Shown piece after piece: positions 34,008 to 64,000 of a DNA stretch of 64,000 bases. The position numbers and the translations under genes were made by a program. Numbering within the stretch: position 1 is the stretch's first letter; every line of letters starts with the position of its first letter. Source of the stretch: Gracilibacillus lacisalsi DSM 19029 (GTDB lineage: Bacteria; Bacillota; Bacilli; Bacillales; Amphibacillaceae); assembly GCF_000377765.1 (NCBI RefSeq), contig NZ_KB898665.1, forward strand, positions 186,001-250,000. Direction: 5' to 3'. The notes under the pieces were generated by a model. It did no database searches. It was not told the origin of the DNA and saw only the letters and a list, made by a program, of their open reading frames with translations.

Positions 34008-34023
34008 CTTTTTTATAACTCCT

Positions 34024-36275: not shown

Positions 36276-36457
36276 GTAAAACTCTTCCCTTCTTTTTTAT
36301 TTTAGATGTTTGGAATAATTATGACACGACCTTTAGTGGATTTGCACAACAACTGTTAATAAATATGACAATATTGCTAATGAACACTTGGAATGCAATT
36401 GGTAAACTTAGGTATAACTTAAACGGATAACGCAAAGTAGGATTGAGGTGCATGGAT

Positions 36458-37708: not shown

Positions 37709-37722
37709 GGGAGGGTTGCAAT

Positions 37723-38982: not shown

Positions 38983-39007
38983 TTTTTTCGAAAAGTGAGG
39001 AGTTTCT

Positions 39008-40342
39008 ATGAGCAATCATTTAGATTTAGTGATCAAAAATGGAAAAGTTGTCTTCCCTGATGGTGTAAAAACGAAAGATATAGGAGTAAAAGCTGGAAAA
39101 ATTACCGCGATTGATGATCAAATCAATCTACCTGCTACGCAAGTGGATAATGCCCAAGGTCTGTATATATTTCCCGGAGCAATCGATGTTCATGTACATT
39201 TCAATGAGCCCGGACGTGAGGATTGGGAAGGATTCACAACTGGTTCTTATATGTTAGCCGCTGGTGGCTATACTTCCTATTTCGATATGCCATTAAACGG
39301 AATACCATCAACGACTAACCTTCGTGCCTTTCAAGAAAAAAATGAGCTAGCCAAAAAGAAATCAGTTATAGATCACTACCTATGGGGAGGTCTTGTTCCC
39401 GGTAACATAGAAGATTTATCCAACCTTGCCTCAGCAGGGGTAGTAGGGTTTAAAGCTTTTATTTCTGATTCTGGAAACGAAGAATTTTCAGCTGTAGATG
39501 ATGATACGCTTATTCAAGGCATGAAAGAAATAGCTCGCTTAGATAAAATACTGGCACTTCACGCCGAAAGTAGAACGATCACAAATTTCCTGACTGCTGA
39601 AAAGATCGCTCAACAAAAGTTATCCGCAGATGACTATTTAACATCAAGACCAATAGTTGCAGAAGTAGAAGCTGTACATAAAGCACTTACTTATGCAGAA
39701 GTAACAGGCTGTCCTTTACATTTTGTTCATATCAGTAGTCCACAGGCTGTCGAAAAAATTCGTGAAGCAAAACGAAAAGGGATCGATGTAACCGTTGAGA
39801 CCTGTCCTCATTATTTATTATATTCCCATTCGGCCTTACAAACAAAAGGTGCTGTTGCTAAATGTTCACCACCGTTACGCTTGGAAAAAGAACGAAAACA
39901 GCTAATCCAACTGTTATGTGACAACGAATTTGACATCATTGCATCTGATCATTCCCCAGCCCCTTTTGCGCTGAAGGATCCTGTCACTCACGATATTTTT
40001 AGTGCTTGGGGAGGAATTAGTGGTGGCCAATTCACGTTACTTTCCATGTTGGAGCTTGTCAAAAAACACAATATTTCCTTGGAAATAATCGCGGATTGGA
40101 CCGCTTTAAATCCAGCAAAAAGATTCTCATTAGATGGAAAAGGGAAAATTGACATTGGTTATGACGCTGATTTTGCGATTATTTCTTTAGATAAAGAGAC
40201 CGTCGTCTCACCATATAATTATTATGCGAAACATAAACACAGCTTATATGAGGATCATTGTTTTCCTTGTAGTGTGTTGAGGACATACAATCGGGGTAAT
40301 GTTGTTTTTGATGAGTCGAAAGTAAGAACAACTTCTTGCTAA
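39008..40342 (+). CDS. pucH: Allantoinase
   Basis: Cyclic amidohydrolase of 444 residues that opens allantoin to allantoate. Metal-site motifs: DVHVHFNEPGREDWEGF near 60-76, carbamylated Lys in GFKAFISDSG near 147-156, HAES, HFVHISSP and DHSPAP near 315. They match AllB/PucH rather than hydantoinase or dihydroorotase. Last of the pucFGH unit, followed about 75 bp on by a terminator. Confidence 0.94.
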   Translation: MSNHLDLVIKNGKVVFPDGVKTKDIGVKAGKITAIDDQINLPATQVDNAQGLYIFPGAIDVHVHFNEPGREDWEGFTTGSYMLAAGGYTSYFDMPLNGIPSTTNLRAFQEKNELAKKKSVIDHYLWGGLVPGNIEDLSNLASAGVVGFKAFISDSGNEEFSAVDDDTLIQGMKEIARLDKILALHAESRTITNFLTAEKIAQQKLSADDYLTSRPIVAEVEAVHKALTYAEVTGCPLHFVHISSPQAVEKIREAKRKGIDVTVETCPHYLLYSHSALQTKGAVAKCSPPLRLEKERKQLIQLLCDNEFDIIASDHSPAPFALKDPVTHDIFSAWGGISGGQFTLLSMLELVKKHNISLEIIADWTALNPAKRFSLDGKGKIDIGYDADFAIISLDKETVVSPYNYYAKHKHSLYEDHCFPCSVLRTYNRGNVVFDESKVRTTSC

Positions 40343-46227: not shown

Positions 46228-46259
46228 AAAAAAGGACGCAATGAATTGCATCCTTTTTA
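46228..46259 (-). terminator. Terminator of the pucABCDE operon
   Basis: AAAAAGGACGCAAT pairs with ATTGCATCCTTTTT (one mismatch). The stem reaches into the pucE stop codon, a compact arrangement; the T-run follows on the leftward strand. Confidence 0.75.
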
Positions 46260-46754
46260 TTGATAATCAATTGCTGCTTTTTTTACTGCTCTAATAATCC
46301 CTCCATATCCTGTACAGCGGCAGAGGTTACCGGATAATGCTGTTTTAATTTGGGCATCTGATGGATCGGATTCTTTATCTAGCAATGCTTTTGTTGCCAT
46401 TATCATTCCTGGCGTACAATAACCGCATTGAAAGCCACCTTCTTCGAGAAAAGCTTGTTGGATAGGGTGAAGTGTTTCTTCATCAAATATTCCTTCAATT
46501 GTCGTTATACTGGATCCATTTACTTGATAAGCCATTACTAAGCAGGAGTTTGCTAAGGTTCCATTTATCAAAATCGAGCAAGCTCCACACCTACCGATAC
46601 CACAGGATATTTTCGTTCCTGTATAATCCAGTTCATTCCGAATAATATCAACGAGTCTTGCTGTTGGATTTACTTGAATCGTTACAGGGGTATTATTAAT
46701 CGTGAAGCTGATTGTTGTCTTCTTGGTTACTGTGGTTGCTTTGCTCTCTGCCAT
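46257..46754 (-). CDS. pucE: Xanthine dehydrogenase, iron-sulfur subunit
   Basis: Carries two [2Fe-2S] clusters that pass electrons from the molybdenum site to FAD. The 165-residue protein has Cys51, 56, 59 and 71 for the plant-ferredoxin-type cluster and Cys110, 113, 145 and 147 for the second (CGYC and CRC). The start overlaps the pucD end by 28 bp, with GAGGGGGAA upstream inside pucD. Last gene of the five-gene operon. Confidence 0.95.
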   Translation of the reverse strand: MAESKATTVTKKTTISFTINNTPVTIQVNPTARLVDIIRNELDYTGTKISCGIGRCGACSILINGTLANSCLVMAYQVNGSSITTIEGIFDEETLHPIQQAFLEEGGFQCGYCTPGMIMATKALLDKESDPSDAQIKTALSGNLCRCTGYGGIIRAVKKAAIDYQ

Positions 46755-48997
46755 GTATGCTTCCCCCTCTCGGTTAATGCTGTTAATATTTCTTCTGAAG
46801 AAATTGGCAGTTTGGCAGGCATATATCCGATCGCATTATGAATTGCCTTCGCAATAGCTGGGGCAACAGCTACCGTCCCAATTTCACCAACACCACGTGG
46901 ACCATATACATCACCCTCGTCTAGATCTTCAATTGGCGTAACATGCATAGTTGTAGGTACATCCTTGATACTTGGAATTAAATAGCCGTCCAGATTCTCT
47001 GTTACGTACCTACTCTCTTTCATCATAGCTTCCTCCATTAATGTATAGCCTAATGACATGACGCCACCACCTTCTATTTGTCCAACATACCCTTTCAAGC
47101 TGACAACAGGGCCAGCTGCAATGGTTTGATCTAAGTCAATGACGGTGACCTTTCCTGTTAAAAGATCAATCTCCACTTGGGCAAATACTGCAGAAAATGT
47201 ATATAAAAAGTGGCCACCATCTACTTCGTCGGGAGTGGTAGGAAAATCAAATTGAGTAGAAGTAATAATCGGTTTCTGTGATGATTTCCTAGCAATTTCT
47301 CGATACGTTATCACCAGTTTACTAGCTTGGCTCAACTGATACACGCCACCTGGTCCCAAACGTAATACATCAACAGATAGTCCGGTAATTGTCGACGCAA
47401 TCTGTAATATTTTCTTCTGAAAATCGTTCTTCATTCGATTGACAGCATGCCATACCATGCTTGTTCCTCGCGATGCTGTTGTCGAGCCGGAAGAAGGTAC
47501 TTTTTTGGTATCACCGATTACTACTTGCAAATCATTAGAGCAAATATTCAATTCTTCCGTTACAATGGTCTCGATCACATTCAAGATCCCTTGTCCGGCT
47601 TCTTCAAAACCAAAGGCAATTTCGATCTTACCATCCTTCGTTATAGACAATTGGCCTCCGGCAGGATCTAATCTACCATATCCTAAGCCACCTCCATGCA
47701 TCGATATGGCAACACCCATTCCTCTCACCTTATTGTCTTCTGCACCTTCTTGTTTTACTAAATTCTTTTGATGCTGGTAAATGTGTTCTAGTACTTGTGA
47801 TGCACCATTAGTAGCCGCAATTCTATGTTTCATTGGACCAGTATCATTCGTTTTTCGGATATTCCTTCTTCTTAGTTCAATTGGATCGATGTTCATTTTT
47901 TCGGCTATTCGATCTAACTGCCCTTCTAAAGCAAAAGTAACTTGATTACCTCCAAACCCTCTAAATTCTCCCGCTACTCCGTTATTAGTAAAAACGGAAA
48001 TACCCTCAACTGCGACATGCTCTATCATGTATGGTCCAACCGAATGCTCAACAGCAAATTCAAGAATGGCAGGTCCTAACGTGGCATAAGCACCTGTATC
48101 AGCGACTATATCCACCTTGTGTGCCACTATTTTTCCTTGTTGATTTGCCCCTGTTTTCATTGTAATTTTCATAGGATGACGTTTTAATCCGGAAATGACC
48201 GATTCTTTTCTTGTTTGGTGAATTTTCACTGGCAAACCTGACTTCAATGCTAATAGAACACCATATGGCTGAATATTTAATTCATCTTTCCCTCCGAATG
48301 ATCCCCCCATCGGACTTGATATGATCCGAATTTTCTCTTCTGGAATATCGAGAATCCTTGACAATTGGAAACGATCCTTATAACCATGTTGTGTTCCTAC
48401 ACAGACTGTTACACCACCATGTTCATCAGGTTCCATCACACCACCTTCTGTTTCCATATAAGTATGCATTTGCCTTGGTAATTGATAGGTTTCTTCTACA
48501 ATAGTATTAGATTTAGCAAAACCTTCATCGATATCGCCCGAATGAAAGCTTGCTCGATGCAAAATATTGCCATCCGCGTGAAGTTGAGGTGCATCTGGCA
48601 TGAGGGATTTTTCTGGTGTATCCAAAATTGGTAAAGGCTCATAGTTTACCTCGATCAAATCAAGTGCCCGATTAGCTATTTCAATCGATTCTGCAGCAAC
48701 CGCTGCGACCGCATCACCAACATAACGGACAACACCTTCACATAAGACAGGTTGATCTGGTGTCACAATACCGAAGCGGTTTAAACCGGGAACATCTTGA
48801 TGCGTGATAACTGCTTTTACACCAGGTAATTGTTCTGCCTGTTTAGTTGATATCGATACAATTCTAGCATGTGGATGCTCACTCCTTAACACTTTCCCAT
48901 ACAGCATGTTTGGAAGTGATATATCCGTCAAATATTTTAAGGAACCAGTTACTTTTTCTTTTCCATCTGGTCTGACTCTATCACGATTTTGATACAC
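46727..48997 (-). CDS. pucD: Xanthine dehydrogenase, molybdenum-binding subunit
   Basis: Catalytic subunit of 756 residues that oxidises hypoxanthine and xanthine to urate. Mo-pterin motifs include GGSFGGKDE near 243, the GEFRGFGGNQ loop near 340-350 (Arg and substrate side), a QG/ASR pocket near 505 (ASRGTS) and GPRGVGEIG near 708-716 with the catalytic Glu. Start is GTG with AGGAGG upstream, 5 bp from pucC. Related aldehyde oxidases are possible, but pucABCDE order matches B. subtilis. Confidence 0.94.
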   Translation of the reverse strand: MYQNRDRVRPDGKEKVTGSLKYLTDISLPNMLYGKVLRSEHPHARIVSISTKQAEQLPGVKAVITHQDVPGLNRFGIVTPDQPVLCEGVVRYVGDAVAAVAAESIEIANRALDLIEVNYEPLPILDTPEKSLMPDAPQLHADGNILHRASFHSGDIDEGFAKSNTIVEETYQLPRQMHTYMETEGGVMEPDEHGGVTVCVGTQHGYKDRFQLSRILDIPEEKIRIISSPMGGSFGGKDELNIQPYGVLLALKSGLPVKIHQTRKESVISGLKRHPMKITMKTGANQQGKIVAHKVDIVADTGAYATLGPAILEFAVEHSVGPYMIEHVAVEGISVFTNNGVAGEFRGFGGNQVTFALEGQLDRIAEKMNIDPIELRRRNIRKTNDTGPMKHRIAATNGASQVLEHIYQHQKNLVKQEGAEDNKVRGMGVAISMHGGGLGYGRLDPAGGQLSITKDGKIEIAFGFEEAGQGILNVIETIVTEELNICSNDLQVVIGDTKKVPSSGSTTASRGTSMVWHAVNRMKNDFQKKILQIASTITGLSVDVLRLGPGGVYQLSQASKLVITYREIARKSSQKPIITSTQFDFPTTPDEVDGGHFLYTFSAVFAQVEIDLLTGKVTVIDLDQTIAAGPVVSLKGYVGQIEGGGVMSLGYTLMEEAMMKESRYVTENLDGYLIPSIKDVPTTMHVTPIEDLDEGDVYGPRGVGEIGTVAVAPAIAKAIHNAIGYMPAKLPISSEEILTALTERGKHTWQRAKQPQ

Positions 48998-49001
48998 GAT
49001 C

Positions 49002-49844
49002 TCAGCCTCCTAGATATTTCATAAACTTGGAAGCAATTAAATTAGTAGCAACTTGTTGTTTGTAGTGTTTTGTTACGAACGGTTCAGACGTCGGATGAAA
49101 TTCTGCCAAGACTAATTCAACAAGCTCCCGGATGTGTACTTCTGTTAATTGCTTACCACTCAAATATGCTTCACATTCTTTTAACCTTACTGGTGTAGTA
49201 GTTCCTCCAGCTACAGCCAACCGAACATCTCCCACTTCATCCCATTCATTCCAATTACAGAAGATAGCTACGGTAACAAGTGAAGGGATGAAAGATTCCC
49301 TCCGGCCAACTTTTTGATAATACTGCATTTGTTTCTTGCTGCTTTGTTTTTTAATATGAATGGTTGTAAGTACCGCATTAGGATCTGCTTCTTGCTGTAA
49401 ATATTCCCATAGCTTTGCCGTACGCAATTGATCTTCTATTACCCAGGAAATATCAGCATCTAATACTAATAATGCAGGTATCGTATCCCCAATCCGATAA
49501 GCTATATTTCCGCCAATACTTCCCCTGTTTCTTACCGCAGGAGAAGCAACATCTTTCACTGCTTCTGAAAGTAATGGAGCAAATTTACGTATTATTAGAT
49601 TTACTTCGCATTCTGCTAATGAAACATACGCGCCTATGTGTATCATGCCATCATCTTGTGTAACTTCATTCAATTTCGGTATCTGATCTAAACGAATTAA
49701 GTTTGATGGAAGGGAAGTCCCTTGTTCTCTTTTTAATTGCAACAGTGTCCCGCCCGCAATATAGGTCGAGTCTTCTTGGAACTGCTTCTTCCATTTCATT
49801 GCTTCTTGAATACTTGCTGCCTCCCATACTTTCTCGACGTCCAT
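49002..49844 (-). CDS. pucC: Xanthine dehydrogenase, FAD subunit
   Basis: FAD-binding subunit of about 280 residues that hands electrons to NAD. YIAGGTLLQL near 28-38 and RNRGSIGGNIAYRIGDTIPALL near 105-126 are the FAD motifs of the family (PCMH type); a CO-dehydrogenase flavoprotein C-terminal domain follows. Start is uncertain: ATG 49844 follows GGAG at a long spacing and leaves a 5-bp gap; ATG 49880 or 49868 would overlap pucB. Confidence 0.92.
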   Translation of the reverse strand: MDVEKVWEAASIQEAMKWKKQFQEDSTYIAGGTLLQLKREQGTSLPSNLIRLDQIPKLNEVTQDDGMIHIGAYVSLAECEVNLIIRKFAPLLSEAVKDVASPAVRNRGSIGGNIAYRIGDTIPALLVLDADISWVIEDQLRTAKLWEYLQQEADPNAVLTTIHIKKQSSKKQMQYYQKVGRRESFIPSLVTVAIFCNWNEWDEVGDVRLAVAGGTTTPVRLKECEAYLSGKQLTEVHIRELVELVLAEFHPTSEPFVTKHYKQQVATNLIASKFMKYLGG

Positions 49845-49849
49845 TTTCT

Positions 49850-50467
49850 TTACAGTTGCTCCTGCCATTTCTTTGCCCATCGATAATCATCCTTCGTATC
49901 AATATCATAAAAACTTTTCCTATCATCACACTTCATGATATAACCATTATTCTTCATACTTTTTACTATTGCTTTAGCTCCTTGATCTCCCTGAAGAGTC
50001 AAGAGACGTTCAAACAAGAACGAGTTAAATAAAATAGGTGGCTGAGTAACACCTGCATACTGAGCAGCTATAAACGGGATTTCTTCATTATAGATATGGA
50101 TTAATTCATTAATAATAGATACTTGAAGAAATGGTTGATCAGCTAACATTATCAAAGCTCCATCAAATGAGGATTTTTGCACTTGCTCAACCCCCGCTCT
50201 GATTGAGTAGGATTGTCCTTGATAAGCTTGTGCATTTCGAACAACCTGATATTTAGCTTTTTGCCACTTCACCTCTTCCGTCATCCAATGTAGTGGATCA
50301 TTCTCCTGCACGACGATAAACACTTGATCTAACTGAGAGGCTAGTGCATTCCGCAAAGAAGCACTCCCAATAGTAGTATCACCAATAGCTAAAGATAATT
50401 TGTCTTCTCCCATCCTCTGGCTGTTTCCGGCAGCAAGCATGATGCCAGCTACCTTAGCATATTTCAT
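49850..50467 (-). CDS. pucB: Molybdenum cofactor cytidylyltransferase-like protein
   Basis: A MobA/MocA-type nucleotidyltransferase of about 205 residues, needed to mature the cofactor for xanthine dehydrogenase. AGIMLAAGNSQRMGEDKLSL at residues 7-26 is the nucleotide-binding signature, with ALIMLADQPFL near 105-115 (metal Asp) and DIDTKDDYRWA at the end. The ATG at 50467 lies inside the end of pucA, so translation is coupled; a GTG five codons earlier is possible. Confidence 0.92.
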   Translation of the reverse strand: MKYAKVAGIMLAAGNSQRMGEDKLSLAIGDTTIGSASLRNALASQLDQVFIVVQENDPLHWMTEEVKWQKAKYQVVRNAQAYQGQSYSIRAGVEQVQKSSFDGALIMLADQPFLQVSIINELIHIYNEEIPFIAAQYAGVTQPPILFNSFLFERLLTLQGDQGAKAIVKSMKNNGYIMKCDDRKSFYDIDTKDDYRWAKKWQEQL

Positions 50468-51494
50468 CGACGACTTCTTCACTTTTTAACATCTTTTTCT
50501 TTTCCTGAATTAATTCCGCCATCACACTTACTGCTATTTCGTTCGCGCTCTCTGCATTAATATTTATCCCGATTGGAGAAAACAAATTTTTTGGAGGTCG
50601 TTGTCCTGCTAATAATCTTTTAGTTCTTCTAGCAGAACCTAACACTCCCAAATACCTTAATGGTTCTTCTATTAAAAAGGATAATAATTCTTTATCGCGT
50701 TGAAAGTTGTGGGTTAGTAAAATTACATAATCCGTTGTGTGGAAGGATATCTGTTGTTGTAGTTCTTTTGGAAAACCAAGGTAATGTTTATTAGCTTCTG
50801 GAAAATTGATCGTATTACACAACTCTTCCCGCCAATCAGCAATTTCCACTCGAAATCCCGTTTCTGAAGCTAAACGAACGATAGGTTTCGCATCATCACC
50901 CGCTCCAATTACTATTAGTCGAGGTTTAGGTTGATAACAATCAAAGTAAATCGCCTGTTGTGAATGAGTCATTTTTTGCGTACCTCTTGTAAAGGAATTG
51001 CTGCTTTGCATCAGTTGATTCAAAGTAGAATTTTCATTTACTTTCCCAAACTGAGCACCGTTCGTCTGAAACCAATAGTTCATAGCTTTATTTTCTGTTG
51101 GAAGCTCCTTATAGATTAGTACTTTTTGACCGTTATCCAATGCTTTTTTGATCCGATATAAATGTTGTAGCAATACATGATCGACAGGTTCCACCAATAC
51201 TTGAATCACCCCGTTACAACCTGAACCCTGTCCCCACAACAAGTCATTATCAGCTCGCATATCATAAGTTATCAATTCTGGCTCTTTTCCGATCCCTAGA
51301 CGAGTAATCCGTTCAACCAAATCCACCTCAAGACATCCGGCACTCAACATACCTATTTGTGAACCATCTGGTTTAAATAACATCATGGCGCCTTCTTTTT
51401 TATACGCTGATCCTTTCACATCTACAATCGTCGCGAGTATAGATCCTACTTGTTGATTCGTAAGTGAGGTTAATACCTCATGAATATCATCCAT
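50454..51494 (-). CDS. pucA: XdhC-family maturation protein for xanthine dehydrogenase
   Basis: A 346-residue XdhC/CoxI protein that inserts or sulfurates the molybdenum cofactor. N-terminal GSILATIVDVKGSAYKKEGAMMLF and SAGCLEVDLVERI (Cys near 55) are followed by a Rossmann domain (LIVIGAGDDAKPIVRLASETGF near 195-216) and GVLGSARRTKRL. First gene of pucABCDE. A PucR-box-like site lies about 95 bp upstream. Confidence 0.93.
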   Translation of the reverse strand: MDDIHEVLTSLTNQQVGSILATIVDVKGSAYKKEGAMMLFKPDGSQIGMLSAGCLEVDLVERITRLGIGKEPELITYDMRADNDLLWGQGSGCNGVIQVLVEPVDHVLLQHLYRIKKALDNGQKVLIYKELPTENKAMNYWFQTNGAQFGKVNENSTLNQLMQSSNSFTRGTQKMTHSQQAIYFDCYQPKPRLIVIGAGDDAKPIVRLASETGFRVEIADWREELCNTINFPEANKHYLGFPKELQQQISFHTTDYVILLTHNFQRDKELLSFLIEEPLRYLGVLGSARRTKRLLAGQRPPKNLFSPIGININAESANEIAVSVMAELIQEKKKMLKSEEVVDEIC

Positions 51495-51602: not shown

Positions 51603-51836
51603 AATCCATCAAAAAAGGCTGACTTCTTATCTGTTTTCACCAAATCCAAGGGGTTTTTAGTAAGAAAATCTTTCAAGTTTGATGAACAACCTCCATTTTA
51701 ATAGCTAATTCCACCAATAATGTGGGATCTTTTTAGTCAATTCATACATACCTTAACTTAATCATACATGATAACATGTAATAAATTACATTATATGTTA
51801 AATAAACTTACAGATATTTTGAGAGGAGGAAGAAGA
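51603..51836 (+). other. Rest of the pucA-flavoprotein intergenic region
   Basis: AT-rich DNA with no gene. It must hold the promoter of the flavoprotein gene; I cannot fix its boxes. GAGAGGAGGA at 51822-51831 is the ribosome site. Confidence 0.4.
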
Positions 51837-53285
51837 ATGACAATCGAAACACTTAATAAACAGGTCAAAAAAGATCTCGCATATCTTAATATACCCGAAA
51901 AAACCTGGGTACCCTCTCGCGAACTGGACGGCAAGCATATATACGATGCTATTATTATCGGAGGTGGACAGAGTGGCTTAGGCGCAGCATTAGGATTAAT
52001 CCGAGAAAAAGTCACTAATATACTTATTATTGATGAGAACTCTGAAGGTCTGGAGGGCCCTTGGGATACGTATGCACGTATGACAACATTGCGCACACCT
52101 AAGCATCTAACGGCCATCGACACCGGCATACCATCTTTAACCTTTCGAGCCTGGTGGGAGGCTCAATTCGGAGAAAAAGGATGGGAAGAATTAGACAAAA
52201 TTCCGAAAGAAGAATGGATGAATTACCTTCGATGGTTCCGTGAAGTTCTGTCACTCCCGATGCAGAACAATACAAAATTGACATTAATCGAACCTGTCGA
52301 AAACGGAATGGTTTATCGTTTACATTTAGAGTCTGCTACCAGCAAGTCGCTACTGTCGCGAAAGGTAATACTAGCTACCGGAATTCAAGGAGGCGGAGAA
52401 TGGCATGTACCCCCTTTCATCAAAGACAAACTACCTAAAAACCTATATGCGCACACCTCTGAAAATATAGATTTCACGAATCTTAAAAATAAGCATATCG
52501 CCATCCTAGGAGGTGGCGCATCAGCATTTGATAATGCAAATTACTCACTATCACAAGGCATATCAGAAGCACATGTATTTATACGTCGCAAGAATATACC
52601 GAAGATTAATCCTATCCGCCACATGGAACAATCTGGGATGATTGATCGCTTTCATTCTTTCGCCGATGCAACAAAGTATAAAATTATGAGTCATTTCTTT
52701 TATCATAATCAACCTCCAACAAATGACACCTTCCGTAAAGCAAGCGCTTGGCCAGGGTTTTGTTTACACACTGGCGAACCTTGGTTAGACGTTCAACAGG
52801 TGGATGATAAAGTAAAGATCATCACAGAACGAGAGGAATACATTTTTGACTTTATTATTGTGAGCACAGGGCTTAAAACTGACCCAGCACTACGACCAGA
52901 ACTACGAATGGTGGAACCATATATTTTTAGATGGCGTGATTATTACCAAGCACCTAATAATATTGCTAACCCATTATTAGATGCACACCCCTATTTAAGT
53001 CCTGGTTTTGCATTTCAAAGTAAAGCACAAAAAGGAAAAAGGTTGTTACACGGATTATATTCATTTAATTATTCTGCTTTGATTAGCTGTGGTCTTTCTG
53101 CATCCGCTATTTCCGGATTGCGTTTTGCTATACCTAAACTCGCCTCAGCAGTAGCTGATCAGCTGTTTCTAGATAATCAAAAAGAGTTATTGGAAGCATT
53201 TTTTCAATATGATGAAGTGGAATTTATTGGAGAAACACCTCAACACTCAAAATCAACTAATCAAAACCAACTATTAAACGCCTGA
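51837..53285 (+). CDS. FAD/NAD(P)-dependent monooxygenase-like flavoprotein
   Basis: A 482-residue flavoprotein with two dinucleotide-binding folds: FAD site DAIIIGGGQSGLGAALG near 38-54 and NAD(P) site IAILGGGASAFDNA near 222-235, with ATGIQGGGEWHVP and VSTGLKTDPALRPEL between and after. This is the arrangement of flavin-containing and Baeyer-Villiger-type monooxygenases and CzcO-like proteins. Start at 51837 follows GAGGAGGA; the earlier ATG at 51768 has none. It is divergent from the xanthine dehydrogenase operon and convergent with the heterocycle operon, so it may oxidise a purine (even urate) or another heterocycle. The substrate is unproven. Confidence 0.85.
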   Translation: MTIETLNKQVKKDLAYLNIPEKTWVPSRELDGKHIYDAIIIGGGQSGLGAALGLIREKVTNILIIDENSEGLEGPWDTYARMTTLRTPKHLTAIDTGIPSLTFRAWWEAQFGEKGWEELDKIPKEEWMNYLRWFREVLSLPMQNNTKLTLIEPVENGMVYRLHLESATSKSLLSRKVILATGIQGGGEWHVPPFIKDKLPKNLYAHTSENIDFTNLKNKHIAILGGGASAFDNANYSLSQGISEAHVFIRRKNIPKINPIRHMEQSGMIDRFHSFADATKYKIMSHFFYHNQPPTNDTFRKASAWPGFCLHTGEPWLDVQQVDDKVKIITEREEYIFDFIIVSTGLKTDPALRPELRMVEPYIFRWRDYYQAPNNIANPLLDAHPYLSPGFAFQSKAQKGKRLLHGLYSFNYSALISCGLSASAISGLRFAIPKLASAVADQLFLDNQKELLEAFFQYDEVEFIGETPQHSKSTNQNQLLNA

Positions 53286-53308
53286 AAGTAAATTTTTCAG
53301 GCGTTTTG
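53278..53308. terminator. Bidirectional terminator between flavoprotein and amidohydrolase genes
   Basis: CGCCTGAAA (53279-53287) pairs with TTTCAGGCG (53295-53303), followed by TTTTG rightward and preceded by A-rich bases leftward. It serves both converging units and overlaps the flavoprotein stop codon. Confidence 0.82.
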
Positions 53309-54559
53309 TTATGTTTTGATCTTTTCAAAATAACGTGTTTGAGAAGGCTCTGTTGCAGCGATCATCTCTCCATCTCGCACCACATAGATTGGTTTTGGCT
53401 GCACACTAAGCATGTCTTCCAGATTATCTACCGGTAGAATGATGAAATTTGCCGGTTTGCCAACTTCAATTCCATATTGGTGACTAGCCCGAAAGCAGGT
53501 CGCACCATTTTTGGTGATCATATCGATAACTGAATAAAAGTCAGCCCTTCCTGTCATATGCGCAAGATGCAGTCCAAGATGAGCTGCCTGCAGCATGTTG
53601 CCGACCCCTAGAGGGTAAAAAGGAGTTCTTATATCATCGTGAGCGATGCAAACATTCACTCCTGCTTCTTCCAATTGCTTTACCCTCGTAATCCCCCTCC
53701 CCTTTGGATGTGGGTCATACCTGCCCTGCATGGCACTGTTAACTAAAGGACAAGCCACAACTGTAATTCCTGCTTGTTTCACCAGTTGAATTACCTTGTT
53801 CGCATATACATCAGAATAATAGGCTAATGCATTCACATGACTCACTGTTACTTTTCCATGATAATCATAATCGATTACCAGGTTTGCTACTACTTCAAGA
53901 TACCTAGAATGTTCATCATCTACTTCATCACAAAAAACATGAATGAACGTATCATACTCTTTCGCCATCTGAAAGCAAAAAACTAAAGATTCTATCCCTT
54001 TCTCTCTCGTGTGCTCCAGATGCGGAACTGCGCTAACCGCATCCGCTCCCAATTCTATTGCTTTGCGCATCCTGACTATATTCTCTACACAAGACACTAA
54101 GCCACTTTGAGGAAAAGCAATAATTTGTAGTTCTACTTTCCCTTTAAATTGTTTTCTTACCTCGAGCAACGCTTTCAAAGCGGTTAAATTTGGATCCGAA
54201 ATATCAACTGCCGCCCTAATAAAAAGAACCCCATATGAGATTAATAGTTTTATTGCCTTTGAGGCACGTTTAACAACATCATCTACTGTTAAATCATCTT
54301 TTCTTGATTGCCAAATATCAATCGCTTCAAATAGTGTTCCAGACTGGTTGTAACGCGGAAAACCAGCTGTTAACACCGTGTCCATGTGCGTATGTGTTTC
54401 AACAAATGGCGGTAATAAATAATTACCTTTCCCATCCCATTCTGTATGACCAGCAATTTCCTGATCCGTAATGGAAACAAACTTACCATTGTTAATTCCG
54501 ATATGGACTCGCATTTCACCCTCCAACAATTTCACATTTTTCACTGTAATATCATACAT
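53309..54559 (-). CDS. Cytosine-deaminase-like amidohydrolase A
   Basis: A 416-residue metal-dependent amidohydrolase of the CodA group. Marks closely follow CodA: THTHMDTVLTAGFP near 56-69 (metal His pair), HVFCDEVDDEHSRYLE near 205-220 (His, catalytic Glu), SHVNAL (His) and AHDDIRTPFYPLGVGNMLQ near 305-323 (metal Asp). It should deaminate or hydrolyse a pyrimidine-like or other N-heterocyclic ring in the cytosol. It is the last gene of a seven-gene operon and 15 bp after a paralogue; two such enzymes suggest two successive steps. Confidence 0.88.
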   Translation of the reverse strand: MYDITVKNVKLLEGEMRVHIGINNGKFVSITDQEIAGHTEWDGKGNYLLPPFVETHTHMDTVLTAGFPRYNQSGTLFEAIDIWQSRKDDLTVDDVVKRASKAIKLLISYGVLFIRAAVDISDPNLTALKALLEVRKQFKGKVELQIIAFPQSGLVSCVENIVRMRKAIELGADAVSAVPHLEHTREKGIESLVFCFQMAKEYDTFIHVFCDEVDDEHSRYLEVVANLVIDYDYHGKVTVSHVNALAYYSDVYANKVIQLVKQAGITVVACPLVNSAMQGRYDPHPKGRGITRVKQLEEAGVNVCIAHDDIRTPFYPLGVGNMLQAAHLGLHLAHMTGRADFYSVIDMITKNGATCFRASHQYGIEVGKPANFIILPVDNLEDMLSVQPKPIYVVRDGEMIAATEPSQTRYFEKIKT

Positions 54560-54574
54560 GCTAACACCCTCTTT

Positions 54575-55921
54575 TTATATAGGAAGTGAACTATCTTCAG
54601 TCGTCTTATTCCATAGTGCTTCTAGTTTTTTATCTGACATCATCATTTCCGTCTTTACACCATTTAACCAACGATTTTTGGTAAATACATATCGGGTTGG
54701 TGCAATGGTTCCAAATAGTTCATAGATATCCTTCGCATCCGTCATCACAAAATTTGCAGGGGCATTTTCTTTGGTATTGTGATGCTCCAATCCATAAATG
54801 CGCCCGGGGATTGTTGTCATCATTTTCAAGACATGTAACAGTTCTTCCTCACTTGCTAAATGTGCAGCATAAGCGGTTAAAAGACCGATTTGTACCATAT
54901 CTCCACATCCAAAAGGGTGAAAAGGGTCATTAACATTATCAGAAGCAGTAGCAATCGAGACACCATGGTCGATTAACTCTTTTATTCTTGTTACACCTCT
55001 ACGAATAATCCCCGAATCCTGTCTGCCTTGTAGATACATATTGGCACCAGGGAGTGTGACAGCATGAATCTGATGTCTCCTTATCCCTTCCATGATATGA
55101 TCAGCCTTCATTTGTTCCATAGCAGCTAACGAACATAAATGTCCAGCCGTAACATATCCTTCAAGTTGGTATTTAGCAGTTTTGCTTATCAGCTCTTCAA
55201 TCGTACAAACGGCTGGATCATCATTTTCATCAACATGTAAATCAACAAACTTTCCATGCTTTATCGCTAACTGCATAGCAATCTCAATATTTTCCGCTGG
55301 GAAGTCTATTAAATGGGGCGCTCCACCAATACCATCAACCCCCAATTGAATTGCTTCTTCGATTACCGCAAACTCTTGATCTGTTCGTTGAATAAGTTTA
55401 GAAAACATCGGCACAATTTGTATATCAATAAAATCTTTTAATTCTTCTTTCACCTCGATTACCGCTTGGAGATTGTCGATTGCCAATTGCACACTGGTAT
55501 CCATTTCAAAATTAACATGTGATCGGATATGTGTTGTTCCAAACGAAAGCGACTGAATCGCCTCTCGTCGCACTCGTTGCTTTATTTCTTCTTTTGTAAA
55601 TAAATGTGCGCGTTCACTATAATTGCGAATCGCTTCGAATAATGTCCCGGTTTTATTAGGCACTGCTTGTAAGGAAAAAGCTTTATCGAGATGGGTATGA
55701 ATATCAACAAAAGAGGGAAGAACAATTCTTCCCTCAAGGTCTATTTGCGAGCAATTAGGTAAGTCTTGCAACGCTTGTTTAAACGGAGTCAACGTTTGGT
55801 CAATATGTTCTGGCTGCATATCGATTGATCGATATTTACCCTCTTTTATCGTTATTTTGTACCGTTTACTTTTGTCTATCAGCGGCAGTTGTACATTATA
55901 TAAAGTTAGTGTTTGGGCCAT
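54575..55921 (-). CDS. Cytosine-deaminase-like amidohydrolase B
   Basis: A 448-residue relative of amidohydrolase A with the same fold but different pocket: DIHTHLDKAFSLQAVP near 73-88 (Lys replaces Thr next to the metal His-Leu-Asp), DLHVDENDDPAVCT near 235 and ATASDNVNDPFHPFGCGDM near 335. This HLDKA/DNVNDP version resembles amidohydrolases of N-isopropylammelide and related ring compounds. Its start abuts the binding-protein gene (2 bp). The substrate is unknown. Confidence 0.87.
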   Translation of the reverse strand: MAQTLTLYNVQLPLIDKSKRYKITIKEGKYRSIDMQPEHIDQTLTPFKQALQDLPNCSQIDLEGRIVLPSFVDIHTHLDKAFSLQAVPNKTGTLFEAIRNYSERAHLFTKEEIKQRVRREAIQSLSFGTTHIRSHVNFEMDTSVQLAIDNLQAVIEVKEELKDFIDIQIVPMFSKLIQRTDQEFAVIEEAIQLGVDGIGGAPHLIDFPAENIEIAMQLAIKHGKFVDLHVDENDDPAVCTIEELISKTAKYQLEGYVTAGHLCSLAAMEQMKADHIMEGIRRHQIHAVTLPGANMYLQGRQDSGIIRRGVTRIKELIDHGVSIATASDNVNDPFHPFGCGDMVQIGLLTAYAAHLASEEELLHVLKMMTTIPGRIYGLEHHNTKENAPANFVMTDAKDIYELFGTIAPTRYVFTKNRWLNGVKTEMMMSDKKLEALWNKTTEDSSLPI

Positions 55922-55923
55922 AT

Positions 55924-56997
55924 CTATTCCTCCGAAGGCAAGAATTCCGTCGTAAAGTAATTGTTGGGATCTTCATCATTGCTAATAATACCTAGATCTA
56001 GCATTTGATCTTGTAATGTCGACCAACGCTCCTCCGTCATATAACCAAAGCCATATTCTTCTGCATCTCCACCAAAGATTAATTCTTCTTGTTCTTCTGC
56101 GCCAAATTCCATTAATCCTTCCGTTAAATCAGGGTTGTACTCCAGTAAAATATCTTGATAATTCGCAGGATCTTCTCTGTATGCTTCCCAGCCTTTAACA
56201 GTCGCTTCCATGAATGCTGCAACTAATTCTGGTTTTTCCTCGATGATTTCCTCCGTAGTGAAAAGCACGTTAGAGTACGGTTGGAAACCCGAATCATGGA
56301 TACGCAAGTAACTATTCTCCACTCCCTGCTGGTCTAGCACATAAGGTTCTGAAGTAATGTAACCTTGGGTAACAGCATTTGGATCATCAATAAACGTACT
56401 TAATTGACCAGTATAAGAGAGCTCATTCATATCACCCAATTCATACGCTTCTTTTATATATTCCCAATAACCAACACCAGGGGCTGTAATACTGGTCATT
56501 CCATTTAAGTCCTCGAAATTTTCAACTCCTGCATCGGCATGGGAAATTAATACATATGGACTCACTTGGAAGATGGCCCCGATGGCTACTAATGGAATAC
56601 CTTTATCACGTGAATTAAGAATATCCTCACCGGACGTATAACCGAAATCCATCTTTCCGGATGCAACTAATTGGGTAGCAGATATTTGCGGTCCACCAGG
56701 CTCAATCGTCATATCGATTCCTACTTCCTCGTAATAGCCTTCATCTAAGGCAGCGTAATTCCCACCATGTTCAGGCTGGGCAAACCAGTTAGTAACCAAT
56801 GTAGCTTCACCTAAATCGGCCACTTCTTCTACATCAACATCTGTCGCCCCCTCACTTTCCGACGTCTCCACATCGGTTTCTTCGCCACTTTCCGCTTCTG
56901 CCCCCGAACTACTATCGCCTCCACACGCTGCAAGTAACAGTAAAAACATCATTGCAACTAGTGCCAACATTCTCTTATTCCAACTAGAACCCTTCAT
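55924..56997 (-). CDS. Substrate-binding lipoprotein of NMT1/ThiY type
   Basis: Lipid-anchored receptor of 357 residues. A signal peptide ends in lipobox LAAC (Cys25), then a long Glu/Ser/Asp linker to about 65. The NMT1/ThiY-like domain starts ATLVTNWFAQPEHGGNYAAL and includes GPQISATQLVASGKMDFGYT and GYITSEPYVLDQQGV. Such receptors bind flat ring compounds (thiamin pyrimidines, riboflavin), nitrate or sulfonates. With the two deaminase-like enzymes, a heterocycle is most likely. Confidence 0.88.
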   Translation of the reverse strand: MKGSSWNKRMLALVAMMFLLLLAACGGDSSSGAEAESGEETDVETSESEGATDVDVEEVADLGEATLVTNWFAQPEHGGNYAALDEGYYEEVGIDMTIEPGGPQISATQLVASGKMDFGYTSGEDILNSRDKGIPLVAIGAIFQVSPYVLISHADAGVENFEDLNGMTSITAPGVGYWEYIKEAYELGDMNELSYTGQLSTFIDDPNAVTQGYITSEPYVLDQQGVENSYLRIHDSGFQPYSNVLFTTEEIIEEKPELVAAFMEATVKGWEAYREDPANYQDILLEYNPDLTEGLMEFGAEEQEELIFGGDAEEYGFGYMTEERWSTLQDQMLDLGIISNDEDPNNYFTTEFLPSEE

Positions 56998-57019
56998 CCT
57001 TATTCCCCCCTCAAGACTG

Positions 57020-57865
57020 TTAATCTTTCTTCATTTCAGATTCATGCCAAGATCCTAATAAGACCTTAGACAATAAACTAACTAATAAGAAAAATACAAT
57101 TCCTAATATTGATGCAGCTATCCCACAGGCAAATAAATAAGGAATTTCCATAGTTGTGGATGCCACGGTGATCGCATAGCCTAAACCGCCATCACCTCCT
57201 CCAATACCAGCTATATATTCACCTACAATGGCACCAATGATCGCTAAAGTACAAGATATCTTTAAACCCGCAATAATATAAGGTAAAGCAGCCGGAATTC
57301 TAATTTTCCACATAATTTGCCATTTGGAAGCTTGATAAAGACTTAGCAAATCAAGCATTCCCCTGTCAGTTGCATTCAATCCTATCAACGTATTGGATAA
57401 CATCGGGAAAAAACCGATTGTAAAAGCAATAATGACAATCGCGTTCATCCCCGAACCGAACCAAATTACAATAATGGGAGCTATAGCTACGATCGGAATC
57501 GTTTGGAGCAATATCGCATATGGGTATAAACTTCTCTCTAATATTTTCGAGCTAGCCATAATAATTGCACCAGATACACCAATAACAACACTAAAGAAAA
57601 ATCCGATCACTGACTCTAGTATAGTAGTAGAAGCTGAATCCCATAGTCGACTCCAATTGTCAACCGTTGCCATAAAGACATCTGTTGGCTTAGGCAAAAT
57701 ATAAGGCGGAATCTGTAACATTGCCGTTCCAAATTGCCAAGCCAACATAACAATCAGAAACGCTATAAGCGGCGGAACCCAGCTATGAAGGAATTTCCAG
57801 TTTACTTTCTTCCGATTTGCCATTTCATTGTTTACTTCCAGTTTTTCCGTCTGTACATTTCCCAT
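57020..57865 (-). CDS. ABC permease, SsuC/TauC/ThiX type
   Basis: A 281-residue inner membrane permease with six to seven helices. The ATPase-contact EAA-like loop reads NATDRGMLDLLSLYQASKWQIMWKIRIPAALPYI near 155-188 (GLNAT, then IRIPAALPYI). The N-terminal tail is long and charged. ATG at 57865 is chosen for AGGAGG six bases upstream; longer GTG and ATG starts overlap the oxidase gene by 4 bp. It pairs with the ATPase two genes upstream. Confidence 0.9.
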   Translation of the reverse strand: MGNVQTEKLEVNNEMANRKKVNWKFLHSWVPPLIAFLIVMLAWQFGTAMLQIPPYILPKPTDVFMATVDNWSRLWDSASTTILESVIGFFFSVVIGVSGAIIMASSKILERSLYPYAILLQTIPIVAIAPIIVIWFGSGMNAIVIIAFTIGFFPMLSNTLIGLNATDRGMLDLLSLYQASKWQIMWKIRIPAALPYIIAGLKISCTLAIIGAIVGEYIAGIGGGDGGLGYAITVASTTMEIPYLFACGIAASILGIVFFLLVSLLSKVLLGSWHESEMKKD

Positions 57866-57876
57866 TTCCATCCTCC

Positions 57877-59217
57877 TCACTTTGCAAGTTTCACATTCTC
57901 TTCTTTAGGAATCTTTCCTCTATTCAAAAGATCATACGGGTCATTCTTTTCTTTTAAGGATGTGATCTTTTCCATCCGTAAGTTATAACCTCCAAAGCCA
58001 AGTAAATACGTATGAGGATTATTGACAGTTACACCAACCTCTTCAAAAAACTCGATAATTTCATAGAGTCTTTCTTTAGATTTATAGATCACAACCGGTA
58101 AGGAAGTCGGGGTGACATTTCCTTCAATTTTGATATATTCGAAGTGGAATTGAACTTCGTACCCGAACCCCTCTCTTATCCTTCGCATTTGTTCAAGTAC
58201 TTTTTCTGTATCAAATCTCGCTTGTAAATAAGTCATGTTCTCACCGTGTTTGTGAGCCCATAGTGTTGCATGGTTCCAAGCAAAATCAGAAACTTTTAGC
58301 CCTTTGTGATACTTTGATGCCGGAATATAAAAGGATTGCTCGCCTCCATATTTCTCGGACAATTCCTTCATCTTCCCTTCTGCATCCTCAGCTATTTCAA
58401 GCATCACAATCGATTTATCCTCTACCAAATATTTTTTTAACTGCTGAAAGTGGGAAGGAATCGGCCATTCACAAACAGAAACTAAACGTTTTGTAATAGC
58501 TTCATCACGCGAAAGTTCATCACTGAACATAACTGCTTCATGAAAAGTATCAAACGACATAATGTACTGAGACCATTCTGTTCTTGATTCTATTGGCAAT
58601 ACAGCTTCAACCAGAATTCCAGTCGTACCGTAATTATGAATATAATCCAATACTTCTTCATCCTTAATGGTTAACAGTTGGGGCTTTTCTTCAACCGTCA
58701 AAATCGTAACCTCAAGAACATTACCATCCCACAAATTCCCCCAACGAATTGACCCAATTCCACCAGATCCACCACATAGAAAGCCGCCGACGGTCGATTT
58801 CATAAAGGTACTTGGGTAAATACGAAGCTCCTTCCCCTCCTTTCGTAACGTTTTCTCTAATAATCCCAACTTAACACCAGCTTGTACGCGAACATCCTTT
58901 TCATTTATTTGCACAATTTGATTCAGTTTTGTTAAATCAAGAATAATCCCGCCGTTTAAAGGAATTCCTTGACCATAATTTCCTGTCCCCGCTCCTCGCG
59001 GTGTGAGGGGAACACGATTTTTTACTGCAAAGCGGATTATCTTTGTTAATTCATCGATAGTCTTGGGGACCACAGCACAGTCAGCAACCTTATCCTTCAA
59101 TTCCTCAAACAAAATGGGGGAGTACCAGTAAAAATCCTTCGATAGCCGATCAATTGCTGAATCTTTGACGATTACATTCTCTTCACCTATCAGTTCCATC
59201 ATTCGTTCTTTCCACAA
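57877..59217 (-). CDS. FAD-linked oxidase of the vanillyl-alcohol-oxidase/GlcD type
   Basis: A 446-residue flavin oxidase. PCMH-type FAD domain at about 45-215 (ADCAVVPKTIDELTKIIRFA, PRGAGTGNYGQGIPLNGG, and GGFLCGGSGGIGSIRWG), then a substrate domain, ending NDPYDLLNRGKIP, the usual GlcD/VAO ending. Start TTG at 59217 has GAGGTG six bases upstream; this leaves 13 bp from the ATPase gene, whereas the longer frame would overlap it. Placing an oxidase inside an importer operon suggests that it acts on the imported compound. The substrate is unknown. Confidence 0.87.
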   Translation of the reverse strand: MWKERMMELIGEENVIVKDSAIDRLSKDFYWYSPILFEELKDKVADCAVVPKTIDELTKIIRFAVKNRVPLTPRGAGTGNYGQGIPLNGGIILDLTKLNQIVQINEKDVRVQAGVKLGLLEKTLRKEGKELRIYPSTFMKSTVGGFLCGGSGGIGSIRWGNLWDGNVLEVTILTVEEKPQLLTIKDEEVLDYIHNYGTTGILVEAVLPIESRTEWSQYIMSFDTFHEAVMFSDELSRDEAITKRLVSVCEWPIPSHFQQLKKYLVEDKSIVMLEIAEDAEGKMKELSEKYGGEQSFYIPASKYHKGLKVSDFAWNHATLWAHKHGENMTYLQARFDTEKVLEQMRRIREGFGYEVQFHFEYIKIEGNVTPTSLPVVIYKSKERLYEIIEFFEEVGVTVNNPHTYLLGFGGYNLRMEKITSLKEKNDPYDLLNRGKIPKEENVKLAK

Positions 59218-59230
59218 TTTGATCACCTCA

Positions 59231-60031
59231 TTAAAATTTAAGATCGCGTGAAACTCTAGCAACAATATCACTAAACTGGTGTGTCGTTCTGATTTCATCA
59301 TCACGAGGAAATGGTAGCGAGACATTTACAGTAGAAGCAATCTTACCAGGACTAGGGGTCATCACTGCTACTTTGGTAGATAAGTACACTGCTTCAAATA
59401 CATTGTGTGTAATAAACAATACCGTCATCTTTTGTGATTCCCATATTCTTAATAACTCCGACTGCAGACTCTGTCTTGTTATTTCATCCAAAGCACCAAA
59501 AGGTTCGTCCATGAGCAACAGTTTTGGCTTTGCCACTAACGCTCTTGCAATGGACACACGCATTTTCATGCCCCCAGATAATTGACGTGGCAAAGATTTT
59601 GCATAATCCTTTAACCCTACTAACTTTAAAGCTCGTTCAGCTTCTTCTCGTTTTTCCACTTTTGACATTCGTTGAAATTCTAAAGGTAACATGACATTTT
59701 CCAACACAGACCTCCAAGGCAAGAGAGTGGCATCCTGAAAGACAAAGCCAACATCCGTACGTTTTTGTTGTGCTGTTTGCACCTGCGAACCTAAGATTTC
59801 AATCTCACCTGTTGTATTTTCTACTAACCCGGATATCATTTTGAATATGGTGGATTTACCACAGCCAGATGGTCCTACAAAAGATATAAATTCTCCGTCT
59901 GCAATATCAATGTCTACGTTGTCCACCGCCACATTCCCATTCGGGAAAATCTTACTTACACCTTTCATTTTTACAACATGTTGACCTGTTTTCCTTTCTA
60001 CCATTTCTTCCAATTCAGTAGTTGTCATCAT
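59231..60031 (-). CDS. ABC importer ATPase, SsuB/TauB/ThiZ type
   Basis: A 266-residue ATPase. Walker A GPSGCGKST near 53-61, Q-loop FVFQDATLLPW, signature RQLSGGMKMRVSIARAL and Walker B LLLMDEPFGALDE are all intact, followed by the switch His in FITHNVFEA. It energises the permease and binding protein in the same operon. Its start overlaps the creatininase-family gene by 17 bp. Confidence 0.93.
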   Translation of the reverse strand: MMTTTELEEMVERKTGQHVVKMKGVSKIFPNGNVAVDNVDIDIADGEFISFVGPSGCGKSTIFKMISGLVENTTGEIEILGSQVQTAQQKRTDVGFVFQDATLLPWRSVLENVMLPLEFQRMSKVEKREEAERALKLVGLKDYAKSLPRQLSGGMKMRVSIARALVAKPKLLLMDEPFGALDEITRQSLQSELLRIWESQKMTVLFITHNVFEAVYLSTKVAVMTPSPGKIASTVNVSLPFPRDDEIRTTHQFSDIVARVSRDLKF

Positions 60032-60854
60032 GATCCTCCCCTCCCTTTTGTAATTCGTCTATATTAAATCTACTCATTTCCTTTAATGCTTCCGCAATAT
60101 ATTTACCTGCTCTCTGATTAATTTCCTTTCCTTTTTCTACAGTAGCTCGGGTAGCATCTCCAGCCATCCCCGTGGCAGATATATCGTTAATCACCCACGC
60201 AAAATAACAACTCCCTTTTAAGTACAAATACTGGACATCCTCCGGTAAGGAAACAAAATCCACAGGACTTTGTTCCATGTTCACCCAATTACCTTTGATA
60301 TCTAATACCATCGAAGTTTCAACATCTCCTCCATGTATCCCAAAAACCCATTCTTTTTCCGGGATCAAATCCGTTAGCAAATTCCCATCAGAAGAGTTTA
60401 ATCTGAAGACCATCATCCCTGTTTCTATCCTGACCTCTCTAGAAATCATGTTTAATAAATCATGATTACCACCATGGGAATTGAATAGAACCAATCTTTT
60501 AAAACCACTATCACTGACACTTTTGGCAATATCCATCACTACGGATTGCAACGTTGCAGCAGAAAGTGTAATTGTTCCAGCCATCCCTAAGTGTTCAGTA
60601 CTTTTTCCATATGGGAGTGGTGGAAGCAGCCAGATATTATCTACCTCTGCAAAATGTTCAAATGCTTCCATTAATACCCCTTCAGCAATTAATGTATCTG
60701 TATAAATCGGCATATGCGGACCATGTTGTTCCACCGCTCCAATAGGTAATACTATTAATGCGTCATCTTTCGGTAGTTGTTTCACTTCCTCTGTTGAGAG
60801 CCTTGCCAAGAATCTTTTTTCAAAAGCTTCGCCATGATATCGATCAGTTTGCAT
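60015..60854 (-). CDS. Creatininase-family amidohydrolase
   Basis: A 279-residue metal-dependent hydrolase. IVLPIGAVEQHGPHMPIYTD at about 34-53 supplies Glu42, His44, Asp53; NSHGGNHDLL near 125-134 gives another metal His, and GIHGGDVETSMVLDI near 170 a Glu. True creatininase has His-Tyr-Glu at the second site; here the HGGN form is found, as in FAPy deformylase and MftE-type members, so ring-opening of some other amide is more likely than creatinine hydrolysis. First gene of the seven-gene operon. GGGG lies before the ATG. Confidence 0.88.
   Translation of the reverse strand: MQTDRYHGEAFEKRFLARLSTEEVKQLPKDDALIVLPIGAVEQHGPHMPIYTDTLIAEGVLMEAFEHFAEVDNIWLLPPLPYGKSTEHLGMAGTITLSAATLQSVVMDIAKSVSDSGFKRLVLFNSHGGNHDLLNMISREVRIETGMMVFRLNSSDGNLLTDLIPEKEWVFGIHGGDVETSMVLDIKGNWVNMEQSPVDFVSLPEDVQYLYLKGSCYFAWVINDISATGMAGDATRATVEKGKEINQRAGKYIAEALKEMSRFNIDELQKGGEDHDDNY

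Positions 60855-61466: not shown

Positions 61467-64000
<2,534 letters not shown>

Follow-up and report, generated by a model that had tools for sequence, protein, structure and literature searches.

What kind of ring would a bacterium take up and break down with a creatininase-family hydrolase, an importer, a flavin enzyme and two relatives of cytosine deaminase, all encoded by one operon? Such a seven-gene operon lies on the minus strand at 53309-60854 of a 64,000-nt contig stretch of Gracilibacillus lacisalsi DSM 19029 (NZ_KB898665.1), hereafter the window, and all coordinates are positions within that window. We read the operon as a system that takes up a pteridine ring, derived from pterin or folate, and degrades it oxidatively to obtain nitrogen or carbon, a reading that we place a little above an even chance. 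The genes, starting with the first of the operon, are the following (ABC, ATP-binding cassette; FAD, flavin adenine dinucleotide; aa, amino acids).

60015..60854, minus strand: creatininase-family amidohydrolase, first gene of the operon, 279 aa (PF02633, 222 bits)
59231..60031, minus strand: ABC transporter ATPase, SsuB/TauB/NrtD type (PF00005, 128 bits)
57877..59202, minus strand: flavin oxygenase-like enzyme of the FAD_binding_4 family, 441 aa (start moved from 59325)
57020..57880, minus strand: ABC transporter permease (PF00528, 105 bits)
55924..56997, minus strand: NMT1/ThiY-type substrate-binding lipoprotein, 357 aa (PF09084, 138 bits)
54575..55921, minus strand: AH2, CodA-like amidohydrolase, candidate C2 (pterin-type) deaminase, 448 aa (from residues and tree)
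53309..54559, minus strand: AH1, CodA paralogue, 416 aa, metal-ligand His214 replaced by Phe (from alignment rows)

The open reading frames, together with a Pfam scan of these seven genes and of a converging flavin monooxygenase-like (FMO) gene, bear out the seven genes, strand, coordinates and families reported in a first-pass annotation of this DNA. Neighbouring genes overlap by 17 and 4 bp or are separated by gaps of 2 to 28 bp. The start of the FAD gene is most likely 59202 rather than 59325, since most relatives align only from about there; the longer frame would run 95 bp into the ATPase gene, and the start at 59202 leaves a 28-bp gap.

The pteridine reading draws on the FAD enzyme in the first place, because its best match in both sequence and fold is 6v42, whose title in the Protein Data Bank (PDB) is that of a flavin oxygenase "involved in folate catabolism". 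In a phmmer comparison with the PDB, 6v42 scored 305 bits over residues 14-431 and the next chain 51 bits. The AlphaFold2 model of the enzyme (built from 26 sequences; mean predicted local distance difference test score 91.6) had 6v42_A as its top Foldseek match, with an E-value of 2.5e-49, a template modelling (TM) score of 0.91 and 36% identity; the next match stood at 3.1e-25, the next folds being generic lactate-dehydrogenase types with a TM score of 0.75. This near full-length homology and shared fold support the same kind of chemistry in the window enzyme as in 6v42/6v43, and are no proof of the same substrate. The 6v42 protein is in turn 65-67% identical to the FAD enzymes of Rhizobium (Rhizobiaceae) clusters, and the reading gains from the fact that the Rhizobium cluster holding this relative has the same hydrolase, importer and amidohydrolase partners as the window operon. 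On plasmid pRL12 of R. johnstonii 3841, the FAD gene stands with creatininase-family, binding-protein, ATPase, permease and "cytosine deaminase" genes, and the cluster also holds an NAD(P)H-dependent oxidoreductase, RidA and a set like that of xanthine dehydrogenase (XDH), with XdhC.

The second line of evidence runs through AH2. Amidohydrolase residues are numbered here as in E. coli CodA, whose metal-binding and catalytic residues give the positions below their roles. H61, H63, H214, E217, H246 and D313 are kept together in 39 of 40 AH2 rows, the window among them, and the complete mononuclear metal site and catalytic residues of an amidohydrolase, as looked for in a pterin deaminase, are present. 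Gln156 is lost and Asp314 has become Asn, again in 39 of 40 rows (Ser stands at 156 in the window), and AH2 scores 222 bits against the cytosine deaminase model PRK09230, under its cut-off of 483. A 39-row tree places AH2 with amidohydrolases of Rhizobium, Klebsiella and a Comamonadaceae-like genome in one 27-row clade (96/100), with the AH1 rows outside it beside E. coli CodA and a very long-branched second Klebsiella row also outside. From its residues and its place in the tree, AH2 is a candidate C2 (pterin-type) deaminase.

According to a report on pterin deaminase (PMC9513972), the Variovorax enzyme has 399 aa, is 37.0% identical to Arad3529 of A. radiobacter and was cloned with a primer lying in the endoribonuclease genes downstream of the V. 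paradoxus genes. In genome G1114, which we term Comamonadaceae-like on account of a second FAD gene with 78% identity to that of a Comamonadaceae plasmid, locus L169 encodes a 400-aa amidohydrolase (from the ATG at 4151) with RidA directly after it, RidA being assigned to Pfam Endoribonuclease L-PSP by a scan of the Rhizobium protein. This pair converges on a unit with FAD, importer, creatininase-family and reductase genes, and its amidohydrolase is 36.2% identical to that of Rhizobium, which itself has a match in 240 of the 297 genomes of the family of genome G401 (locus L107, Rhizobium terricola) at E <= 1e-20 and with widely varying identity. The L169 pair would fit, on circumstantial grounds, the deaminase-endoribonuclease pair published for Variovorax, and this resemblance, with AH2 lying in the same clade, is a further reason for the pteridine reading. 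The likeness of AH2 to the pterin deaminases (Arad3529 and that of Variovorax sp. F1, as described in PMC9513972) would thus lie in its being a CodA-branch amidohydrolase and in the 400-aa gene with RidA in the Comamonadaceae-like cluster. TRZ/ATZ-type amidohydrolases near the module were also considered as isoxanthopterin deaminases, an idea that found no support: the L021 protein passes the 5'-deoxyadenosine deaminase cut-off and no other among the best 25 models, and the isoxanthopterin deaminase 2paj comes low among the matches of each of the two proteins compared.

In two other phyla the place next to the FAD gene is held by a different deaminase. A cytidine-deaminase-fold gene comes directly before the FAD gene at all 17 Acidobacteriota loci and at 10 of the 12 from Verrucomicrobiota (27/29), and the best solved relatives of its product are a deoxycytidine deaminase and guanine/guanosine deaminases. 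An amidohydrolase match occurs besides this gene at 6 of the 10 Verrucomicrobiota loci and at 1 of the 17 Acidobacteriota loci; locus L057 has the amidohydrolase alone and L055 neither type of deaminase. The use of another deaminase fold at this position suggests a pathway in which a guanine-like ring is deaminated, and we count this guanine-deaminase-related gene among the grounds for a pteridine substrate.

The same holds for the importer, because the best solved relatives of the binding lipoprotein, 4nmy and 3ix1, include a pyrimidine binder, 3ix1 being named as an N-formyl-4-amino-5-aminomethyl-2-methylpyrimidine binding protein. For the ABC ATPase, no cut-off was reached among the best 25 of 187 NCBIfam models. 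An aliphatic sulfonate or nitrate importer was rejected, with scores under the cut-offs for SsuA_fam (46.4 vs 163.5), ntrB (59.7 vs 209) and ntrCD (213.4 vs 291.8).

The steps of a pteridine route could be divided among these proteins as follows. The NMT1-type lipoprotein, the permease and the ATPase would, judging from their families, import the ring, and AH2 would remove the 2-amino group, turning a pterin into a lumazine-type compound. The neighbouring XDH might then hydroxylate C7, given that XDH acts on pterins and that its genes adjoin the operon. By homology to 6v42, the FAD enzyme would oxygenate the ring, and the creatininase-family hydrolase and AH1 would hydrolyse amide bonds so as to open or shorten the oxidised ring. 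What the sequences themselves establish is the gene set, its conservation, the protein families and the state of the active sites; the substrate, the products and the order of the steps are inferred from these.

How far these genes belong together was judged from 96 loci, comprising 8 plasmid loci, 9 of 10 loci from sampled genomes (L029 was dropped as a likely duplicate of L045) and 79 contig loci; the last are the best 79 of 561 confirmed relatives of the FAD enzyme, and the set therefore leans to best matches. Genes were counted by tblastn because gene calling was wrong in high-GC loci, and some loci end at contig ends. CodA-like genes were counted with CodA-type queries at E 1e-8, which may include ordinary TRZ-type amidohydrolases (e.g. 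one in L021), and RidA with four proteobacterial queries at E 1e-8. A creatininase-family gene lies near the FAD gene at 26/26 Bacillota, 17/17 Acidobacteriota, 11/12 Verrucomicrobiota, 15/17 Pseudomonadota, 1/1 Chloroflexota and 2/23 Cyanobacteriota loci, and a permease gene at 24/26, 15/17, 11/12, 17/17, 0/1 and 4/23, respectively. Hydrolase, importer, a deaminase and the FAD enzyme thus occur together in Acidobacteriota, Verrucomicrobiota and Pseudomonadota as well, and the earlier view of an importer and ring-acting enzymes forming one unit is strongly supported by this conservation across phyla. Sixteen further proteobacterial loci, from 15 genomes, have a creatininase-family gene (14), a CodA-like gene (15) and RidA (13). 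The cyanobacterial relatives of the FAD enzyme (loci among L062-L105) mostly stand alone, with a CodA-like gene at 1 of 23 loci.

Among 398 genomes sampled from the class, 11 have the FAD enzyme (E <= 1e-40), and so have three of the 17 genomes in the genus (E <= 1e-60), the window's genome included in both; with a Comamonadaceae homologue as query (E <= 1e-60), 32 out of 398 genomes sampled in the phylum to which a Rhizobium relative belongs have it. The first-pass annotation named a lack of conserved gene order in relatives as grounds for refutation, and this did not come about: the exact seven-gene order recurs at 5 of 26 Bacillota loci, namely L021, Niallia circulans (L031), Paenibacillus (L034 and L035) and Metabacillus halosaccharovorans (L069), and both other genomes of the genus with the FAD gene share with the window one and the same arrangement of operon, FMO gene, xdh set and purine genes, so that the grouping is far from a chance one. 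Reductase genes near the module are in keeping with an oxygenase dependent on reduced flavin: they are of the WrbA type at 11/26 Bacillota loci and encode an FMN reductase or a VanB-type enzyme at 13/17 Pseudomonadota loci. RidA is present at 14 of the 17 Pseudomonadota loci and, with the four proteobacterial queries at E 1e-8, was found at none of the tallied loci outside that phylum.

Several of our results weigh against a pteridine substrate for the window operon. The folate link of 6v42 comes from its deposition title, and no paper on that structure was among the literature matches listed. The window FAD enzyme, whose activity is a prediction, is just 38% identical to 6v42, and in a midpoint-rooted tree of 38 rows it groups with Bacillota, Acidobacteriota, Verrucomicrobiota and Chloroflexota rows, across the deepest split from 6v42 and the Pseudomonadota and Cyanobacteriota rows. 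The window AH2 is 28.6-29.0% identical to the Rhizobium and Comamonadaceae-like amidohydrolases vs 28.1% to E. coli CodA, so that it is no closer to these candidate counterparts of the pterin deaminases (28-29%), which here stand in for the characterised enzymes, than it is to CodA. The match between L169 and Variovorax is circumstantial, being one of length, neighbour and identity figures. In Verrucomicrobiota, the replacement of one deaminase by the other is not clean, both being present at the six loci noted above. The solitary cyanobacterial relatives mean that the FAD family is not tied to one pathway, and the window operon does not have the RidA and flavin-reductase genes of most proteobacterial versions, so these two functions would have to be supplied by genes outside it.

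The second CodA-like enzyme brings in a feature of its own. AH1 aligns with E. coli CodA (1k6w) at 370 bits over residues 16-411 and keeps most active-site residues. It differs from CodA in having Phe at the His214 position, in 18 of 18 Bacillota rows including the window, and His at the Asp212 position, in 17 of 18 (a distant Chloroflexota row from L048, with Val at 214, was set aside from these counts); the corresponding differences in AH2 are the loss of Gln156 and the Asn at 314. In the class search, an AH1 homologue occurs in 64 of 398 genomes (E <= 1e-70), of which 30 homologues were examined: the four in FAD clusters, the window included, have Phe at 214, and the 26 from genomes with no FAD match all keep D212/H214 (Asp-x-His). 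The change therefore goes with the cluster, and the loss of this metal-ligand His (H214F) is new and has so far been seen only inside it. The earlier call of two ring-acting CodA-like hydrolases is right as to the families and has to be amended for AH1, whose metal ligand is lost in every cluster-linked Bacillota row examined.

A wider picture, which we put forward tentatively and think rather less probable than its opposite, would be a conserved route of pteridine uptake and mineralisation in at least four phyla, wired into purine breakdown in some Bacillota, in which the Bacillota AH1 is a duplicated cytosine deaminase rebuilt for a new ring-hydrolysis step, its third metal-ligand His moved by two residues (Asp-x-His to His-x-Phe). 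AH1 would in any case be a natural instance of a metal-site change in a well-studied deaminase. The bacterial degradation of the pterin ring of folate is poorly known; in PMC9513972, environmental folic acid degradation is described as not fully elucidated, with products identified only as far as deaminopteroic acid. With an importer, a deaminase candidate, an oxygenase and hydrolases defined in one operon, the remaining steps could be tested one gene at a time, and the FAD enzyme allows the module to be traced across phyla.

The first-pass annotation had found no known pathway that matches the gene set, and this holds only in part: the FAD enzyme goes with a flavin oxygenase deposited as one of folate catabolism, and the amidohydrolase group contains a probable pterin deaminase. 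The Rut pathway is comparable in its flavin enzyme with the RidA-type and flavin-reductase partners of the proteobacterial versions, and in a RutB-like hydrolase in one Paenibacillus relative. It differs in that the oxygenase here is of the FAD_binding_4 family, and no RutA-type oxygenase was found among the eight proteins scanned with Pfam (the seven operon genes and FMO).

The surroundings of the operon bring up a different kind of substrate. As was claimed before, the operon adjoins purine catabolism, with XDH and a purine region beside it and the same synteny within the genus; the neighbouring features are these.

53276..53306: terminator-like hairpin between the ends of the convergent operon and FMO gene (13-pair stem; pattern scan, a consensus match only)
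51768..53285, plus strand: flavin monooxygenase-like (FMO) gene converging on the operon (PF13738; start probably 51837)
46257..51494, minus strand: XDH-type set of small, large and FAD subunits, MobA-like and XdhC (read from open reading frames)
33657-40342: PucM, UraD, PucR, PucF, PucG and PucH genes (names from reading of the open reading frames alone)

The substrate might then be an unusual purine (oxidised, methylated or 2-amino) that is fed into the adjoining XDH-urate-allantoin route. The operon has this position in the window and in two genomes of the same genus, in Salipaludibacillus it sits inside the urate cluster, between XDH/UraD/PucM and PucF/PucG, and the guanine-deaminase-like proteins encoded directly before the FAD gene in other phyla would suit a purine too. 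XDH lies near the module at 6 of 26 Bacillota and 3 of 17 Acidobacteriota loci, besides pRL12 and both other genomes of the genus. We nevertheless consider a purine unlikely, given that no XDH was found in the fetched 10-kb flanks of four of the five Bacillota loci with the exact order (L031, L034, L035 and L069) and that the nearest solved relative of the FAD enzyme is labelled with folate.

It is also conceivable, if quite unlikely in our view, that the operon is a conserved N-heterocycle module whose substrate varies by lineage, the Bacillota ring being neither a pterin nor a purine. The deep split of the FAD tree and the AH1 versions, seen only in Bacillota loci, would agree with this, as would the accessory genes, which are WrbA and a Rieske type in Bacillota, RidA and FMN reductase in Pseudomonadota and a CocE hydrolase in Acidobacteriota and Verrucomicrobiota. 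Yet the core genes differ little between lineages, and this favours a single core chemistry. A route for the salvage or breakdown of the thiamine-derived pyrimidine through a ThiY-like importer appears very unlikely: the binding protein is of the NMT1/THI5 family and has the formylaminopyrimidine binder among its solved relatives, but the FAD enzyme points elsewhere and no thiamine gene was recognised in the neighbouring frames, which were read and not searched by model.

The use of creatinine, hydantoin or cytosine by a creatininase and CodA-like creatinine or cytosine deaminases, to which we give hardly any credence, has the family names and their scores in its favour (222 bits for the Creatininase Pfam family, 451.7 for AH1 with PRK09230), and true creatinine or cytosine use was rejected because the scores stay under the cut-offs (101.3 vs 235 for the true-creatininase model TIGR04448, 451.7 vs 483 for cytosine deaminase) and active-site residues are changed, AH1 being without the metal ligand His214 and AH2 without Gln156. 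The hydrolase shares its Pfam family with creatininase, MftE and ArfB and differs from them in scoring below the cut-offs of all four matching NCBIfam models, including MftE (124.8 vs 172).

The FMO gene is more likely a neighbour that belongs to the purine set than a part of the operon. It adjoins the operon in both other carriers of the genus, and no FMO match was found in the 96 other tallied loci. In a further genome of the genus (G710, locus L210), the importer next to FMO and the xdh set is another one, 41-58% identical to that of the window, and no FAD gene was found in that genome at E <= 1e-60. UraD and PucM, whose homologues lie at 33657-34521 in the window, act after uricase, yet none of the 17 genomes in the genus yielded a Uricase-family gene (a B. 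subtilis control was positive), and no member of the other urate-oxidase family, PF06181, was found in the window's genome. UraD occurs in 4 of the 17 genomes (G000, G707, G710 and G711; E <= 1e-15), and FMO (E <= 1e-60) in the same four, beside XdhC in each. Since FMO tracks UraD where no uricase was found, we regard it as a candidate replacement for uricase, outside the seven-gene operon, and it may be an unrelated urate hydroxylase; that these four genomes are akin could also account for the co-occurrence. The known HpxO-type urate hydroxylase is a class A flavoprotein (PF01494), a family with six short matches elsewhere in the window's genome.

A PucR box common to the operon and the purine genes, as had been proposed, found no support and was rejected as evidence. 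The PucR consensus has 4 matches with at most one mismatch in the window vs 6.1 expected, none of them in the intergenic DNA that precedes the operon or xdh, and its one exact match (54664) lies inside AH2. The best 13-mer shared by the operon and xdh intergenic regions agrees at 12 of 13 positions, which was reached in 91 of 200 shuffles. A 13-mer picked post hoc, TGTCATTGGTYAT, is exact at 51590 and 61067 and, with at most two mismatches, has 10 matches vs 5.2 expected, a number reached in 3 of 100 shuffles, but the two intergenic regions resemble each other no more than shuffled ones do.

Other genes accompany the module in particular lineages. A CocE/NonD-type hydrolase gene lies near the FAD gene at 28 of 29 Acidobacteriota and Verrucomicrobiota loci (among L044-L108), several of which also have an amidase and a DUF3891 protein. 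In Paenibacillus (L036, L039, L040 and L041), a Rieske-type oxygenase stands beside an amidohydrolase, which is of the TRZ/ATZ type in L041, and the plasmid versions of Klebsiella and Rahnella (L014 and L015) have a divergent second unit consisting of a binding protein, an amidohydrolase and a 2-oxoglutarate-Fe(II) oxygenase. Upstream of the operon in the window, the neighbour on the same strand (61467-63887, with its start near the window end) reads, from its open reading frame alone, like a cell-wall-anchored galactan-degrading glycosidase.

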